Origin: Streptomyces agglomeratus
GTDB taxonomy: Bacteria; Actinomycetota; Actinomycetes; Streptomycetales; Streptomycetaceae
Length of the DNA: 64,000 nt
NCBI RefSeq assembly: GCF_001746415.1
Contig: NZ_MEHJ01000001.1
Coordinates: 5,028,501-5,092,500, forward strand
Direction of reading: 5' to 3'
Program-made: the position numbers and the translations under genes
Notes under the pieces: generated by a model
Seen by the model: the letters and a program-made list of their open reading frames with translations, nothing else
What the model was told of the DNA's origin: nothing
Database searches by the model: none
In this document: piece by piece, positions 6,064-26,164 of the stretch
Numbering within the stretch: position 1 is the stretch's first letter
Layout: each line of letters begins with the position of its first letter

Positions 6064-6069
6064 CGTCTG

Positions 6070-6143
6070 TGCGCCGCCAGGGACTCGAACCCCGGACCCG
6101 CTGATTAAGAGTCAGCTGCTCTAACCAACTGAGCTAGCGGCGC
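6070..6143 (-). tRNA. tRNA-Lys (CUU), copy 2
   Basis: Identical over 74 nt to the copy at 2480-2553, with the same cloverleaf, anticodon CUU and discriminator A. It is on the minus strand with its own hairpin terminator 7 bp downstream. Confidence 0.97.
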
Positions 6144-16034: not shown

Positions 16035-17945
16035 TCAGACCCGCTGCGGGCTGACGGCGATCATCGCGGCGATCCGCTCCGGTGTCACCGCGCGCGAGTA
16101 CAGCCACCCCTGCCCCGTGTCGCACCCGATCCGGCGCAGCCGAGCCGCCTGCCCCGACGTCTCCACGCACTCCGCCGTGACGGTCAGCCCCAGCCGGTGC
16201 GCGAGCTGCACCAGCGCCTCGACGATCGTCTCGTCGGCCGGGTTGGCGTGCGCCTCGTCCTGGAAGCCGCGGACGAACGACCCGTCCAGCTTGAGCACCG
16301 AGACGGGCAGCCGGCTCAGGTACGCGAGGTTCGAGTAGCCGGTGCCGAAGTCGTCGATGGCGATGTGCACGCCCATGTCGCTCAGTGCCTGAAGGGCCTG
16401 GAGCGGCCGTCCCGCCGACCCCATCACGGCCGACTCCGTCAGCTCCAGTTGCAGCAGGTCCGGCGGGAGACCGGTCTCGGCGAGGATGCCGGCGACGTCC
16501 GCGACCAGGTCGGAGTCCCAGACCTGGCGTACGGCGACGTTGACGCTGACGAAGATCGGCGGCGTGCCCGGGTGCGCGATCTGCCACTGCCTGGCCTGCC
16601 GGCAGGCGGTCCGCAGCACCCAACGGCCGAGCTGGACGATCGAGCCGTCCTCCTCGGCGATGGAGATGAACCGATTCGGCGCCAGCGTCCCGAACTGCGG
16701 GTGTTCCCAGCGTACGAGCGCCTCCACCCCTCGTACGCCGCCGCCCTCCAGGTCCACCAGCGGCTGGTACTCCAGCGTGAACTCGCCGCGTTCGACGGCC
16801 GGCCGCAGGGTGCTGGACAGGGCCTGGCGGGTCATCCGGTGGGCGTTGCGCTCGGGGTCGAAGAGCGTCCAGCGCGCCTTGCCGTCCGCCTTGGCCCAGT
16901 ACAGCGTCGTGTCCGCCGCCTGCATCAGGCCGGTCGCCGTGGTGCCGGCCGCGACCCGTTCCACGACGCCGATGGACGCGGACACCGCCAGCCGCTGGCC
17001 CGCCAGGTCGAAGGGCTGCTGAAGGGCGGTCAGTACGGCCTGGGCGAGGTCGGCGAGCTGTTCCGTACCGGTGGAGTCCTCGACGAGCAGGGCGAATTCG
17101 TCGCCGCCGAGCCGCGCGACCAGGTGACCGCCGGCCCGTGCGTAGCCGTACTGGTCGGCGCACCGGGCCAGCCGCGACGCCACGGCGGTCAGCAGCCGGT
17201 CGCCGACGCGGTGGCCGAGCGTGTCGTTGACGGCCTTGAACCCGTCGAGGTCGAGATAGCAGACGCCGATCCGGCCGGTGCCCCCGTCGTCGTACGCCGA
17301 ATTCTCCAGCGCGGAGGTGAGCCGCTCGAAGAAGAGCGTGCGGTTCGGGAGCCGGGTCACCGGGTCGTGCATCTGGAGGTGGCGGAGCCTGGCCTGGAGT
17401 TCCCGCCGGTCGCTGGTGTCCGCGACCGACAGAAGGACGGTCGCCGTGTCCGGTACGGGCGTGACGGTGACCTCGGCCCACAGCGAGCGGCCGTCCGGGT
17501 GTTTCAGCCTGCGCGTGCAGCGGAAGCGGGCGCGTCGCCCGGCGAGGACTTCCAGGTAGGCGTGGAAGCTTCGGGCGTCGGCCGCGAGGTCGAGGAGGTC
17601 CGCGGCGGACTGCTCGCGCAGCTGGGCGGCGCCGGTGCCCAGGAGTGCGGCGAGGGAGGGGTTGGCGGTGACGACGAGGCCCTCGCGGTCCACGACGGCC
17701 ATGGCGAGGTGCGCGGCGTTGAAGGCGGCGCGGTAGTCGCGCAGGTCGGAGGCCGGACGCCCCGCGCCGTTACTCCGTGTGACCGGCGGCCGGATCGTGT
17801 CGGGGGCTGAACCGGGTCCTTCGAAGGTTCCGCTCACCGCTCGCTCCCGCAGGGCATCGATTCGCTTACAAGGGTCGTCGGGGTCGTCGGCGGGGTGGAG
17901 AGCCCCGCACGGGGCTGATTCCACGCAGGAAAGTGTGCCGATCAT
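16035..17945 (-). CDS. cdgA: PAS-GGDEF-EAL cyclic di-GMP enzyme (CdgA-like)
   Basis: A 636-residue protein predicted to make and/or degrade c-di-GMP. A PAS domain (about 70-190) contains DLRDYRAAFNAAHLAMAVVD. The GGDEF domain (about 200-360) keeps RLGGDEFALL and LPNRTLF. The EAL domain (about 375-630) keeps EALVRWEHP, LTESAVM and DDFGTGYSNLAYLS, so both active sites look intact. No membrane segment is present. In S. coelicolor a protein of this architecture at the corresponding place is CdgA, a target of the developmental regulator BldD. I searched the upstream region for a BldD box by eye and found no good match. The N-terminal start is not supported by a clear ribosome site. Confidence 0.85.
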   Translation of the reverse strand: MIGTLSCVESAPCGALHPADDPDDPCKRIDALRERAVSGTFEGPGSAPDTIRPPVTRSNGAGRPASDLRDYRAAFNAAHLAMAVVDREGLVVTANPSLAALLGTGAAQLREQSAADLLDLAADARSFHAYLEVLAGRRARFRCTRRLKHPDGRSLWAEVTVTPVPDTATVLLSVADTSDRRELQARLRHLQMHDPVTRLPNRTLFFERLTSALENSAYDDGGTGRIGVCYLDLDGFKAVNDTLGHRVGDRLLTAVASRLARCADQYGYARAGGHLVARLGGDEFALLVEDSTGTEQLADLAQAVLTALQQPFDLAGQRLAVSASIGVVERVAAGTTATGLMQAADTTLYWAKADGKARWTLFDPERNAHRMTRQALSSTLRPAVERGEFTLEYQPLVDLEGGGVRGVEALVRWEHPQFGTLAPNRFISIAEEDGSIVQLGRWVLRTACRQARQWQIAHPGTPPIFVSVNVAVRQVWDSDLVADVAGILAETGLPPDLLQLELTESAVMGSAGRPLQALQALSDMGVHIAIDDFGTGYSNLAYLSRLPVSVLKLDGSFVRGFQDEAHANPADETIVEALVQLAHRLGLTVTAECVETSGQAARLRRIGCDTGQGWLYSRAVTPERIAAMIAVSPQRV

Positions 17946-19592: not shown

Positions 19593-19601
19593 TCCCGTCT
19601 G

Positions 19602-19675
19602 TGCGCCGCCAGGGACTCGAACCCCGGACCCGCTGATTAAGAGTCAGCTGCTCTAACCAACTGAGCTAGCGGCGC
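19602..19675 (-). tRNA. tRNA-Lys (CUU), copy 3
   Basis: Identical over 74 nt to the copies at 2480 and 6070. The last codons and TAG stop of the upstream minus-strand gene lie in its first ten nucleotides. Confidence 0.97.
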
Positions 19676-20920: not shown

Positions 20921-22276
20921 TCACCCCCGGTAGCGCACGCGGTGTTCCGTCAGGTGCGCCAGGACCGCGTGGTTCGCCTCCCAGCCGTCCGGGAACTTGA
21001 CCGTGACGCCCAGCTGCACCGGCTCCGTCGAAGGGTGCTGGTCGAGCAGGTCCGCCACCCCCTCCCGGCACACCACCACGCACGCGTGCCGGTGCCGCGA
21101 AGCCAGGACGCACAGCCGGCCCGTCTCCAGGTGGAACGCCGTCGCGTCGGGCCGCCCCGACAACGGATGCAGCACCACCGTCACGTCGAACTCGCGGCCC
21201 TGGAGGCGGTTCGCCGTGTCCACCGCGACCCCCGTGACGCCGAGGCCGGCCAGCGCCGCCCGGACCGCCGCCGCCTGGTCGCGGTGGGCCGTGCCGACCG
21301 CCACCCGGTCCGCCGTGAGCGGGACCGGGTCCGGGGAGCGCTCGCTGACCGCCGCGCCGCCCCGGTCCAGCAGGCGGCGTACGACCTGGGCGACCGCCCC
21401 CACCGCCTCCGGGTCCGTGCGCGGGGTGTGGCGGGCGGGCAGCTCCAGGAGCCCCCAGCCCGAAGCGGCCGCCTCGTCCAGCACCCGGTCGGGGCCCGAG
21501 CCGTCGGACGGGACGCCGAAGGACAGCCGCCGGTCGCCGTGGTCCGTGCCGCTGCGGAAGGGCGTGTACGGGTAGAACGCGTCCGAGACCAGCGGCGCGG
21601 CCGACGCCGGGAGCCGCCAGGACACCGGCAGGCGGTGCTGCGGGAGTTCGGGGTTGTGGGCCAGCAGCGTCGAGACCGCGCTGGCCGACGGGTCGTACGA
21701 CAGCCCGGCCCACTGGTCGGCGCCGACAATGGAGAACGGGTCCAGCTGACCCGGGTCGCCGACGAACAGCGCCCGCTCGAAGAGCCCGGCCACGGCGAGC
21801 AGCGCGTCCGAACGCATCTGGTACGCCTCGTCGACGATCGCGTGCGTCCACGGCTCCGTGGTCTTCACATGGGCCCACTTCGCGGCCGTCGAGATGACGA
21901 CACCCAGACCCGCGAGGTCGGCGGCCTTCGAGGACTTCCGTACGTGTCCCAGGTCGTCGAGGGCCTTGTCGTACGGGTCGGTGTCACTGCTGTGGAGCCG
22001 GCCGACCGGGAGGTCAGGTGCTTTCTCCGCGAGCCGCAGGACCAGGTCGTCGACCTGGGCGTTGGTCTGCGCGATCACCATCAACGGGCGCCCGGCTCCG
22101 GCCAGTTCGAGCGCGGCCCGTACCACGAGCGTCGACTTGCCCGCGCCGGGCGGCGAATCGACGACGACGCCGCGGTGCGTGCCGTGCAGCGTGTCGTGGA
22201 GGATCGCCGCCGTCGCCCGGCCGGCCTCGGCGCCGGGGTCGAAGGCCGGAGCTCCGGCGGAGAGGGGCCGGTTCAC
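20921..22276 (-). CDS. DNA2/UPF1-type superfamily 1B helicase
   Basis: A 451-residue ATP-dependent helicase. All core motifs are visible: Walker A DSPPGAGKST (about 40), motif Ia VIAQTNAQVDDLV, motif II HAIVDEAYQM (DEAxQ), motif III LFVGDPGQLDPF, motif IV-like RLPVSWRLPASAAPLVSDAFY, motif V DTANRLQGREFDVTVVL and motif VI VLASRHRHACVVV. This is the AAA_11/AAA_12 arrangement of Dna2, Upf1 and Senataxin, without accessory nuclease or zinc domains. The GTG start overlaps the stop of the preceding gene (GTGA), so it is translationally coupled. The nuclease encoded two genes upstream has the domain that Dna2 carries fused, suggesting that the two work together on DNA. Confidence 0.87.
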   Translation of the reverse strand: MNRPLSAGAPAFDPGAEAGRATAAILHDTLHGTHRGVVVDSPPGAGKSTLVVRAALELAGAGRPLMVIAQTNAQVDDLVLRLAEKAPDLPVGRLHSSDTDPYDKALDDLGHVRKSSKAADLAGLGVVISTAAKWAHVKTTEPWTHAIVDEAYQMRSDALLAVAGLFERALFVGDPGQLDPFSIVGADQWAGLSYDPSASAVSTLLAHNPELPQHRLPVSWRLPASAAPLVSDAFYPYTPFRSGTDHGDRRLSFGVPSDGSGPDRVLDEAAASGWGLLELPARHTPRTDPEAVGAVAQVVRRLLDRGGAAVSERSPDPVPLTADRVAVGTAHRDQAAAVRAALAGLGVTGVAVDTANRLQGREFDVTVVLHPLSGRPDATAFHLETGRLCVLASRHRHACVVVCREGVADLLDQHPSTEPVQLGVTVKFPDGWEANHAVLAHLTEHRVRYRG

Positions 22277-23868
22277 AGAATGTCCTCCGGGGTCACGGGG
22301 TCGGGACGCTCGGCGCCCGCGCCCGGTGGGCCGCCGTGGGTCCATGGGGTGGCTTCCGGGTCGGGGAGCTGCGGGCCCCCGCGCTGGTCGTGCTCGAAGA
22401 GGGTCCAGCAGACGGGCTCGCCCTTCTCCGGTACGGACCCCGGCGCCGGTTCCTTGCCGCGGCCCATCTTGTCCGTGATCCGCAGCACCAGGACGCCGGC
22501 CTCCTCCTCGTACCGTACGAACTCAGCCGTCTGCGGCCTGCCGTCCAGCGAGCGGTAGACCTTCGTGCGCTCGCCCAGGTGCGGGGCGTCGTCGGTCCGT
22601 ACCGTGACCAGGGGGCGGGGGCTCGGCCGTTTGCCCTCGCTCATGGTCATCTCCACGTCCAGCACCTCGCCGGCGAACGCCTCGCCCGAGAGCCGCCGTC
22701 CGGCCATCACCAGCGGGTCGTCGAGCGCCTCCTGCGCCTCCAGCTGTGCCTGCGCGCTCTCGCGCGAGGCGAGCTTCTGCGCGGCGGTCACCGCGTCGTC
22801 GCGCCGGGGCTGCGGCGGCTCCCCGGCCCGTACGCGGTCGCGGTGGCCGGTGTACGACCACCGGTCGCGCGTCCAGCGGTCCGCCGCCCGCTCGCCCTCC
22901 GGCAGCTCCCTCAACAGGTCGAGTGCGCGCCACACCGCGTCCCAGGTGGGCCGCATCTGCGCGGCGAGCAGTTCGCGGATGTGCCGCTCGGCCCGGCTCA
23001 GTTCGCCGAGGTGCGCGTCCGCCGCGAGGCCGTCCTCGGCGGCGGCGAGCGCCTTGCGGGCCAGGTCGTAGCGGTCGATGGCGGGGGCCAGCAGCTTGTT
23101 GTCGAACGCCGGGTCGGTCGCCGGGCCGGCCGGCGGGCACACCAGCTGCCCGCCCCGGTCCCGCTCCAGCTCCGCCCGCAGCGCCGCCTCGGCACCGGAC
23201 CCGCCCGCCGGGCCGTCCGGGTCGATCCAGGCGAGCAGGGCGCCCAGGTGCTGGTCCTCCAGGCTCGACTGCCCGGTCGCCCAGTGGCGGCCCAGCAGGT
23301 CCGTGGCCGCCAGAAGGAGCGAGGACCCGGGCACCCGGGCGCGCTCGCCGAAGTGCGTCAGCCAGCGCCCGAGCAGCGGGATGTGCGGCGGCGCGGGATA
23401 GGGCGTGTCCGGATCCTGCTCGGCCGTCCGCCGGAAGCGCGTCGAACGCCCGAGGAGCCGTACGTACTCGATGCCCGCCCGGCTCGGCACGATCAGCTGC
23501 GGTGCGTCCGCGCACAGTTCGACCTCGACCTTGACCCGCTTGCCGGTCCCGGGGTCGGTCTCGTTGCGCTCGGCCGCCTCGACGTCGTCGCCGTACCCGT
23601 CGATATACGGCAGGACGGAATCGGCCAGTTCGGCGAGGAAGGCGAAGCGCAGGTCGCGGTCGCGCGGCTGCGTCACGGCGAGCAGCCGCGGCGCGTCCCG
23701 GTCGGTCCCCACGAGCGCGCCGAGCGGCGCGCCCGCCTCGCCCGCGGTGGTCAGCGGCACGAAGACCATCGGCCGCCCGGACAGGTGGCGGTGCCGGACG
23801 GTGGCCAGCGGCTGGGCCCGTCCGCTGCGCACGGCGTCGAGCCGCGCCAGCGTACTGATCAGCGACAT
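22273..23868 (-). CDS. Unknown 531-residue partner in the nuclease/helicase operon
   Basis: A 531-residue soluble protein that I cannot place in a family. The N-terminal half is mixed alpha/beta with FVPLTTAGEAGAPLGALVGTD, RDLRFAFLAELADSVLPY and EVELCADAPQLIVPS. The middle (about 230-390) is long, helical and very charged, probably coiled. The C-terminal part has FAGEVLDVEMTMSEGKRPSPRPLVTVRTDD and TKVYRSLDGRPQTAEFVRY, beta-rich and possibly an OB or DNA-binding barrel. The ATG overlaps the nuclease gene by 10 bp and the stop overlaps the helicase start. It may bridge the two enzymes, but this is inference. Confidence 0.75.
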   Translation of the reverse strand: MSLISTLARLDAVRSGRAQPLATVRHRHLSGRPMVFVPLTTAGEAGAPLGALVGTDRDAPRLLAVTQPRDRDLRFAFLAELADSVLPYIDGYGDDVEAAERNETDPGTGKRVKVEVELCADAPQLIVPSRAGIEYVRLLGRSTRFRRTAEQDPDTPYPAPPHIPLLGRWLTHFGERARVPGSSLLLAATDLLGRHWATGQSSLEDQHLGALLAWIDPDGPAGGSGAEAALRAELERDRGGQLVCPPAGPATDPAFDNKLLAPAIDRYDLARKALAAAEDGLAADAHLGELSRAERHIRELLAAQMRPTWDAVWRALDLLRELPEGERAADRWTRDRWSYTGHRDRVRAGEPPQPRRDDAVTAAQKLASRESAQAQLEAQEALDDPLVMAGRRLSGEAFAGEVLDVEMTMSEGKRPSPRPLVTVRTDDAPHLGERTKVYRSLDGRPQTAEFVRYEEEAGVLVLRITDKMGRGKEPAPGSVPEKGEPVCWTLFEHDQRGGPQLPDPEATPWTHGGPPGAGAERPDPVTPEDIL

Positions 23869-25127
23869 GCGGCCTCCTCCGGCGCGAGGGGCGACGGCGC
23901 GACGGAGGACGGCGCGACGGAGGACGATGCCGCCCCGCCGGTTGTCCCCGCCAGGGCGAGTGCCTGCGCCCGCAGCGCCGCAGCCCGGCGCAGCGCGGCC
24001 ACCGCCGGATCGGCCGGGTCGCCGGCCGCGCCCTCCGCCGCCGCCAGGACCTCACCGACCGTCGTCAGCCCGCCGAGCTCCCCGCGCACACTGCGGCCCA
24101 GCGCCTCCACCGCGCCCGCCGCCCGCGCCTTCGCGCGGCAGTGGAACGCCAGCTCGCACGCGGCCAGGCATTCGGGGGCGTACGCCGCGTCGACCGATTC
24201 GACCGCCGCCGCCAGCTCCTCCGCCGGGCGGTCCACGTCGAAGGTCGTGCCCTCGGGGAGCGCGGCGGCCAGGTCCTCGATCCGGGTCAGCCGGTCGAGC
24301 TGGCGCCGGGTCACCGACCGCTGCTTGCGTACGTCGACGACCGAGGCCGCCGGCAGGTTCGAGAAGTCCTTGGGGCAGACCAGCAGTACCGAATGCCCGA
24401 CCCGCGCGCCCGTCACCTTCGCCGCGACCCGCTCCAGCGCCAGGACGTACACCGCGGCCTGGCGGGCCGCCGCGCCGACCTTCGCCGCGTCCGCCGAGTC
24501 GTCGATCATCGGGAACGACTTGATCTCGACGACCGTCCAGTGCCCGTCCGGGTGCACCACCACCGCGTCCGGCTCCAGGTACGCGGGGGAGCCCGCCACC
24601 TCCAGGGCCAGCATCGGGTGGTCCAGCAGCGTCCAGGCGGCGGCCGCCGTCGCCTCGCGCAGCGCCAGCGCCGTACGGGCCGCCCGGCCCTCCGGCCCGG
24701 CCGCCGCCAGGTCGGGTACGCGCGTCTCGCCGGGGACGGGCGGCTCGGCACCGGCGCCCGTGCGGGCGTACAGCAGCCGCATCAGCTCCGTACCGCCGTC
24801 GGCCTTGACCCGGGCCTCGAAGGCATTGCCCCGCATGAACGCGAACTGCGACTGCCCGAACGCGGCAGGCGATCCGAGCGCCGTCGCGAGCGCCGCCTTG
24901 TTCACCCCGGCCCCGTCGAGCAGCGCGCGGCGCTTGCAGCCCGGATTGGCGGCGAGCGCCGCCAGCGCACGCGCGTCCAGCGGCTGCGGCGCGACGGACG
25001 GTCCGCGCAGCTCAGCGAGCCGCTGCCGGAGCGCCGTCGCCGGCGCCGGCGTCGGCGTCGGTGGCGCCGCCTGCGGGGGCACTCGCGGAGGTGTGGGTAC
25101 GGGTCCGCTGCCCAGGGATTCGCTCAC
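23859..25127 (-). CDS. PD-(D/E)XK nuclease with Cas4/AddB/Dna2-like four-cysteine (Fe-S) pattern
   Basis: A 422-residue protein. The RecB-type nuclease core is visible as FMRGNAFEARV (Glu104), EPDAVVV (Asp187) and WTVVEIKSF (Glu201-x-Lys203), followed by AARQAAVYVLALE, the usual QxxxY-type helix. Cys64 (NPGCKRRALL) precedes the core; Cys320, Cys324 and Cys330 (PECLAACELAFHCR) follow it. One cysteine before and three after the core is the layout that holds a 4Fe-4S cluster in Cas4, AddB and Dna2. A GTG start at 25127 gives a Pro-rich head and overlaps the PAP2 gene by 116 bp; a GTG about 15 codons later is an alternative. The gene overlaps the next by 10 bp. Confidence 0.83.
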   Translation of the reverse strand: MSESLGSGPVPTPPRVPPQAAPPTPTPAPATALRQRLAELRGPSVAPQPLDARALAALAANPGCKRRALLDGAGVNKAALATALGSPAAFGQSQFAFMRGNAFEARVKADGGTELMRLLYARTGAGAEPPVPGETRVPDLAAAGPEGRAARTALALREATAAAAWTLLDHPMLALEVAGSPAYLEPDAVVVHPDGHWTVVEIKSFPMIDDSADAAKVGAAARQAAVYVLALERVAAKVTGARVGHSVLLVCPKDFSNLPAASVVDVRKQRSVTRRQLDRLTRIEDLAAALPEGTTFDVDRPAEELAAAVESVDAAYAPECLAACELAFHCRAKARAAGAVEALGRSVRGELGGLTTVGEVLAAAEGAAGDPADPAVAALRRAAALRAQALALAGTTGGAASSSVAPSSVAPSPLAPEEAACR

Positions 25128-25947
25128 CCTCGGAAGTCTCGCATCCGGTACTGACAATGCCGGTGGCGATCGCCGATCCGGCCGCGCCCCGTCCGGGCCC
25201 GAAGCGCTCCCGCACCCGGTCCGCACCTCGTATGAACGGCCTGGTGAGGGCGGCTCCGAGACCCATCACCGCGGCCCCGGCGACCGCGTCGAGGAAGTAG
25301 TGGTTGGCGGTACCCATCACCACGAAAGTGGTCAGCAGGGGGTACGCGACGCCGAGCGTCCTCATCAGCGGCGTACGCCCGTGCCGCCACAGCATCACCC
25401 CGCACCACAGCGCCCAGCCCACGTGCAGGCTCGGCATCGCGGCGTACTGGTTGGTCATGCCGCCGAGACCGCGCGGCGCGCTCGCCTCGGCGCCCCACCA
25501 GCCGTACACGCTGTACTGCGCCATCGTGTCGACGAAGCCGTGCCCGGCGTCGAGGAGGCGCGGCGGGCAGGTCGGCGCGAACGTGAAGCCGACGAGGCCG
25601 AGGAGGGTCGAGAGCATCAGCCAGGTGCGCGCGGCCCGGTAGCGGGCGGTCCGCCGCCGGAAGAGCCAGACGAGGATCGCCGGGGTGACGAGGTAGTGCA
25701 GCGACGCGTACGCGAAGTCGGCGGGTATCCCGAGCCAGGAGTGTTCGGTGAACAGCCGGTTGAGGGGATGTTCGGCGTTCAGCCGCAGGAGCTTCTCGGC
25801 ACGCAGTATCGACAGCCCGTTCTCGACCGCCGCCGCCTCGCCGCCGCGAACGAACAGCCGCCCGCCCGTGTAGGCGGCGTAGACCACCACGACGAGCAGC
25901 AGCTCGGTCCACCAGCGGGGTCTTCTGCGGGGCGCGGTGTCCTGCAT
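25012..25947 (-). CDS. PAP2-superfamily membrane protein (Aur1/IPC-synthase-like)
   Basis: A 311-residue multi-pass membrane protein. The phosphatase/transferase signature is [13 protein letters not shown] (PSxH motif) and [13 protein letters not shown] (HxxxD motif), as in the PAP2_3 group with inositol-phosphorylceramide synthase. About six helices span residues 15-245. It may transfer or hydrolyse a phosphate on a lipid carrier. The ATG at 25947 is preferred because GGAG lies 9 bp upstream; ATG 25962 has no such site. Its hydrophilic tail overlaps the nuclease gene by 116 bp. Whether it belongs functionally to the nuclease/helicase set or is just a neighbour is open. Confidence 0.83.
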
Positions 25948-26164
25948 CCGGACGCTCTCCATTTGTCTGATGTGCGGCCTACGGGCTGACTGGCCACCCT
26001 TTCAACCGTACGGTGTACGAGAACAACTGTGCGCACCGGGTGCGCGAGTAGGTGGACGTGGAAAATGCCCCGGAGGTTGCCCCTGGGCCCGGTGCGCGAT
26101 GATGGTGCGGGCGGTTCGCCCCGCCCGCACCACGCACGCTTCGCACGTCCAGGGAGACATCGTC

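Follow-up and report, generated by a model that had tools for sequence, protein, structure and literature searches.

A putative three-subunit DNA2-like helicase-nuclease encoded by overlapping genes in Streptomyces agglomeratus

The window analyzed here is a stretch of 64,000 nucleotides from the 9.13-Mb genome of Streptomyces agglomeratus. It contains three overlapping genes that code for a nuclease (N), a middle protein (M) and a helicase (H). The three proteins are probably the subunits of a single DNA2-like helicase-nuclease. The gene order N-M-H mirrors the order of the parts in DNA2 and in the fused TM0106-type proteins, because M appears to hold a barrel that resembles the 1B domains of UPF1-like helicases and another half that is tentatively RNase H-like. 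Eukaryotic DNA2 is a single chain, whereas N-M-H corresponds to three chains with the same order of parts. In eukaryotes, DNA2 has a key role in resection and flap processing, and to our knowledge nothing in it corresponds to the N-terminal half of M. A first-pass annotation of this DNA had proposed a split Dna2-like machine for DNA processing or defence, with M as an unknown linker. The split-Dna2 part of the proposal gains support from the fold of N, the helicase H and the putative 1B domain of M. M is a separate middle gene as proposed, but rather than a plain linker it seems to hold the 1B domain of the helicase. Judged by titles and abstracts, none of the papers listed in literature searches deals with the three-gene set, and the annotation knew of no characterized system with this gene order.

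The three genes and their products

The three minus-strand genes had been annotated with overlaps of 10 bp (N/M) and 4 bp (M/H), and the open frames, the codon composition and the homologues bear this out. Open frames alone carry little weight, because the DNA is 71% GC and long frames are common: 77 open reading frames (ORFs) of at least 100 residues are present over 20 kb, including an antisense ORF of 1323 residues across N-M-H. The GC content at the third codon position (0.91-0.94 in N, M and H) backs real genes, and homologues support both M (3713 among 7999 scored candidates) and N (3581 among 7996). N shows no conservation over its first ~35 residues, a stretch that overlaps the neighboring PAP2 gene, so the true start of N may be downstream of 25127. 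H has an alternative upstream ATG at 22345, and the 453-residue homologues in two other loci (L002 and L003) fit the start at 22276. For the comparisons in Table 1, at least 598 pattern matches for M included at least 425 relatives, of which the best 80 were kept as core loci, all 80 from Streptomyces.

Table 1. Features of the N-M-H set and of the flanking gene, in window coordinates.
Feature	Position	Strand	Remarks
N, RecB-family PD-(D/E)XK nuclease	23859-25127	-	422 aa; four conserved Cys; start uncertain
N Cys64	24936-24938	-	presumed iron-sulfur (Fe-S) ligand; invariant in 32/32 aligned homologues and 80/80 core loci
N Glu201-x-Lys203	24519-24527	-	invariant in 32/32 aligned homologues and 80/80 core loci
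N Cys320-x3-Cys324-x5-Cys330	24138-24170	-	presumed Fe-S ligands; invariant in 32/32 aligned homologues and 80/80 core loci
M, middle protein	22273-23868	-	531 aa; no family model over cut-off, no PDB match by sequence
M residues 31-380	22729-23778	-	RNase H-like (3'-5' exonuclease-like) fold, tentative; predicted model
M residues 387-502	22363-22710	-	beta barrel like the 1B domain of UPF1-like helicases; predicted model
H, DNA2/UPF1-type superfamily 1 (SF1) helicase	20921-22276	-	451 aa; GTG start; no 1B domain ahead of motif I
H Walker A GAGKS, residues 44-48	22133-22147	-	intact in 78/78 loci covered
H motif II DEAY, residues 149-152	21821-21832	-	D149, E150 and A151 intact in 78/78
PAP2_3 gene	25012-25962	-	overlaps start of N; flanking, not counted in the module; PAP2_3 3.2e-67

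The residues first named in N (Glu104, Asp187, Glu201-x-Lys203 and Cys64/320/324/330) proved correct and, together with Gln223 and Tyr227, are invariant in all aligned homologues. Across the core loci each of them is kept in 80/80, except Glu104 (79/80, with one gap). The predicted model of N matches chains of Cas4, RecB, AddAB, AdnA and Dna2 in a fold search (structures were predicted for one family member each of N and M). By this model N has a RecB/Cas4-like fold; in its sequence one cysteine stands before the core and three after it.

The DNA2/UPF1 helicase motifs noted earlier in H hold as well: beside the intact Walker A and motif II, the residues that were checked in motifs V and VI are kept in 74-77 of the 78 loci, the remainder being gaps or substitutions. 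H matches the family profiles AAA_11 (9.9e-10) and AAA_12 (4.6e-7), both over cut-off, and its own profile matches DNA2 (5eaw, 1.8e-8) and SMUBP2/IGHMBP2 (3.8e-8). These matches start at position 33-35 in H, shortly ahead of its Walker A at residue 44, vs position 643 in DNA2 and 207 in SMUBP2, which has ~200 residues ahead of the block matched by position 33 of the H profile. Because of this early start, H would have the RecA-like core but lack an upstream 1B domain. The family PLuB_AAA (NF040671) was rejected for H: only the helicase part matches (1.5e-14), far below the 999-bit cut-off, and ten other places in the same genome match as well. The word PLuB was not met in the literature found.

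M seems to carry the 1B barrel that is missing from H. The idea of a 1B domain supplied in trans was recorded before any fold-search result on M was seen. For residues 387-502 of the predicted model, ranks 1-3, 5 and 6 of the VIA structural list are IGHMBP2, senataxin and Sen1, with UPF1 lower; the other rows for M are mainly flavin-reductase, siderophore-interaction, riboflavin-synthase and ribosomal barrels. Foldseek returned 875 matches for M at E <= 10 and zero at E <= 0.001. For the N-terminal half of the model, the likeness to RNase H-like exonucleases is tentative.

Fused relatives, proposed mechanism and distribution

TM0106 proteins of Rhizobium turned up among the weakest plasmid matches of H. 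In one of them (L128), a RecB nuclease with RNase_H_2 (TIGR03491, residues 11-504) is followed by a gap and a UPF1-type helicase (residues ~740-1110). TIGR03491 exceeds its cut-off in 117 of the 345 genomes of the class, and 19 of 20 regions fetched from these hold an L128-like ORF of 1130-1301 residues; the remaining region has an ORF of 879 residues instead. The TM0106 family, represented by L128 and the 19 actinobacterial ORFs, shares the part order of N-M-H and has a complementary distribution, although it is a fused chain and N-M-H three genes. By eye, the RNase H-like domain of L128 shows a DLE motif, whereas that half of M shows no DxE motif. H matches the TM0106 helicase with E 4e-27 (hhalign, local).

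Two results weigh against one DNA2-like enzyme in three subunits. Other barrels lie within 1 Z of the 1B matches of M in the VIA list, and neither N nor M gives a significant profile match with the fused TM0106 proteins (hhalign, local). Because H matches the fused protein but N and M do not, the sequences suggest either that the N-M-H split is very old or that the parts were assembled independently.

The protein Bad of Geobacillus stearothermophilus is also like N-M-H by its published description (PMC7430649). A four-cysteine RecB nuclease, a central region of unknown function and a DNA2-type SF1 helicase follow in the same order, in one protein of 1245 residues rather than in three genes. 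The published report presents Bad as an Fe-S 5'-3' helicase-nuclease that its authors call rare and sporadic; the bad genes adjoin a methyltransferase in Geobacilli, and the cellular role of Bad is given there as unknown (PMC7430649).

In the proposed three-subunit enzyme, H would be an SF1B motor that lacks its own 1B barrel. M would dock onto H, contribute that barrel together with an RNase H-like body that looks catalytically dead, grip single-stranded DNA and hold N. By analogy with Bad and DNA2, the motor would thread a single-stranded 5' end or flap, moving 5'-3', and N, a RecB-type nuclease stabilized by an Fe-S cluster, would cut the threaded strand. The window copy would then be a housekeeping enzyme for end resection or flap trimming, in place of the fused TM0106-type protein that the S. 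agglomeratus genome lacks: TIGR03491 has no match in this genome at E <= 0.001, and none for N at E <= 0.1. Separate subunits would let the contributions of the 1B barrel and of the nuclease be told apart by omission.

Of the 345 genomes sampled from the class, 59 have M, among them 32 of 33 Streptomyces; in larger samples it occurs in 187 of 199 Streptomyces genomes and in 60 of 120 genomes of the family f17. The three-gene form is present in most Streptomyces species sampled, and as the genus is genetically tractable, a bacterial DNA2-like role can be tested there by gene deletion. Restriction to one genus, which the first-pass annotation had named as a result that would speak against it, does not apply: six families (f1, f4, f17, f18, f37 and f46) of the class have M, and in five of these the loci read show N and H next to it. 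In f37, H lies ~36 and ~49 kb from N-M (G095 and G196), so that the linkage of N-M-H is not absolute. The distances of N, M and H correlate with r 0.56-0.84, but this carries no weight, since common ancestry by itself would produce it.

M and TIGR03491 rarely share a genome. They occur together in 3 of the 345 genomes (G031, G249 and G308) vs ~20 expected (Fisher p 2e-8, and 0.003 outside Streptomyces, both uncorrected for ancestry). In f17, 10 genomes are M-positive, 14 are TIGR03491-positive and none has both; in f18 the numbers are 13, 17 (one below cut-off) and 1. A threshold of E <= 0.001 without the cut-off adds four Streptomyces to the overlap (G101, G153, G163 and G317). The M copies of G249 and G308 (L124 and L117) adjoin SbcCD.

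M was absent from 13 Streptomyces genomes, two of them just 81-82% complete, and in 11 of these neither N nor H was found with the thresholds applied. The other two assemblies are fragmented: in G535 pieces of N and H sit at contig ends, and in G544 H lies close to the end of a contig. In the M-positive small genomes searched alongside, N and H are present in 3/3.

Accessory copies, plasmid relatives and alternative readings

Accessory copies of the set occur on plasmids, and their gene order can be extended by a further gene, X (X-N-M-H). The 37 non-core loci read (L002, L003, L006, L114-L127 and L187-L206) were chosen partly by high score and some are cut by contig ends (L204 = 3.5 kb), so that the fractions that follow are not prevalences. 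SbcC and SbcD matches lie divergent from X-N-M-H in 13 of the 37 loci and as remnants in two (L002 and L190), while 22 show no SbcCD match, 13 of these having X. Among the 11 second copies fetched from Streptomyces (L120-L123 and L187-L193), eight have the SbcCD pair, one a remnant and two none. The SbcD next to the set is a gene in its own right: it has 67-92% identity to the query in five genomes, vs 30-35% for the other SbcD-like genes of these genomes and of S. agglomeratus, whose two SbcD-like genes are both far from the window. JetABCD follows the set in L002, L003 and L191, and a divergent Jet set (matches of 24-27% identity) is near the copy in L195, which makes 4/37. The PADLOC JetA1-JetD1 models match in L003; no Jet match was found beside the window copy among the selected ORFs scanned. 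SbcCD (Mre11-Rad50) and the Wadjet system JetABCD are neighbors of the accessory copies, yet separate systems.

Some accessory copies lie close to the ends of replicons. In L189 (G527:C1:1-18500), 84 bases separate the start of the SbcC match from the end of the genome, a single contig of 8.27 Mb; the copy in L003 is at ~278-294 kb of a 300.2-kb linear plasmid; and the copy in L002 extends right up to the end of a 186-kb plasmid whose record is labelled circular. The accessory copies may thus have a link to linear ends. Two other copies (L120 and L121; G123:C8 and G199:C41) have X-N-M-H without SbcCD and share neighboring ORFs of 546, 304, 88 and 1209 residues, perhaps a further context type.

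With its own divergent SbcCD, the accessory copy would form a fuller end-processing set, in which SbcCD opens the end and X-N-M-H resects it, and suggests a bacterial analogue of resection by Mre11-Rad50 and DNA2. Wadjet cuts circular DNA and spares linear DNA (PMC10586767), and a linked module that degrades ends would therefore be a logical follow-up. A more specific scheme, a three-part DNA2 with its 1B domain in a separate subunit whose accessory form is the second stage of a two-stage anti-plasmid machine, is bolder and less likely. In this scheme, Wadjet would linearize small circles, the dedicated SbcCD would open their ends, and X-N-M-H would resect and destroy the resulting linear DNA, which Wadjet alone does not recut. 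The accessory form could thus perform a step after Wadjet cutting, finishing off linearized plasmids.

A rather unlikely alternative to the three-subunit DNA2-like enzyme is a defence system, in which the complex would recognize DNA of phages or plasmids and break it down, the core copy being a set of immune genes that has become fixed. The accessory copies on plasmids and beside JetABCD and SbcCD speak for it, as do the weak matches of H to the MkoC and MkoA models (1.6e-7 and 5.8e-6) and the methyltransferase next to the bad genes in Geobacilli (PMC7430649). On the other hand, the core copy is kept in nearly all the Streptomyces genomes sampled with conserved synteny; in the PADLOC comparison that the first-pass annotation had suggested, N and M match no model (E 0.1; E 0.001), nor does X; and the 24 pattern matches of M in viral contigs include no relative, with H unmatched in phages. 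The defence half of the original proposal is therefore not supported for the window copy, and a "defence machine" possibly fits at most the accessory form, beside SbcCD and JetABCD. A phage or viral origin of the set was rejected, as no relative of M was found in viral contigs and no match of H in phages.

An RNA enzyme is improbable. Here a motor like Sen1 or IGHMBP2 would work with a nuclease on RNA or R-loops, and the best barrel matches of M (IGHMBP2, senataxin and Sen1, with UPF1 lower) are to proteins that act on RNA. However, the fold of N is that of RecB, Cas4, AddAB and Dna2 nucleases, which act on DNA, and the accessory copies adjoin the DNA machines SbcCD and JetABCD.

The last alternative comes from a plasmid cassette of Rhodococcus, Mycobacterium, Mycolicibacterium and Xylanimonas, with genes for a MoxR-type ATPase, a DUF2201 VWA protein, a protein of ~65 residues, an M-like protein (M') and a helicase (H'). 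The full order is present in six of the nine loci read (L004, L005, L089, L090, L091 and L093); in L092 the first gene is shorter, L087 has just the small gene, M' and H', and L088 is rearranged. L088 (Arthrobacter) has relatives of MoxR and VWA and a 365-residue candidate for M' (E 0.0088 in a six-protein search). H' has 29-36% identity to H in the nine loci, and the profiles of H and H' match with 100% probability (E 1e-51). Those of M and M' match with 89% (E 2e-6) and their C-terminal halves alone with 11% (E 0.003); the M profile exceeds the inclusion threshold for just two of eight M' proteins, so the M-M' link is modest. N is found in only three plasmid records, and L005 and L087 have a different annotated PD-(D/E)XK gene some kilobases off. 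In the Euzebya plasmid of L087 (6346-11182), M'-H' comes after a DNA cytosine methyltransferase, with a DpdB gene close by, an arrangement that recalls Bad beside a methyltransferase.

In these data M-H appears as a constant motor core with the nuclease as an exchangeable partner. An independent M-H motor with varied partners, N being one of several nucleases and no DNA2-like division of labor existing, would account for M' and H' standing after MoxR and VWA without N. It is nevertheless held to be quite unlikely, given the modest M-M' link and the joint absence of N, M and H from 11 of the 13 M-less Streptomyces genomes.

Surroundings of the window copy

The gene neighborhood of the window copy is conserved among the loci compared. 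The PAP2 gene was rejected as a fourth member, because one locus (L035) has N-M-H without a match to it. A tblastn search with X of the plasmid form matched nothing in the window, and the frame at 25124-25912 (minus strand) proved wrong as X. The conserved block also contains a PAS-GGDEF-EAL protein (16035-17945, minus strand), with matches in 64 of 85 loci. Three tRNA-Lys (CTT) genes lie on the minus strand within ~17 kb, at 2479-2553, 6069-6143 and 19601-19675.
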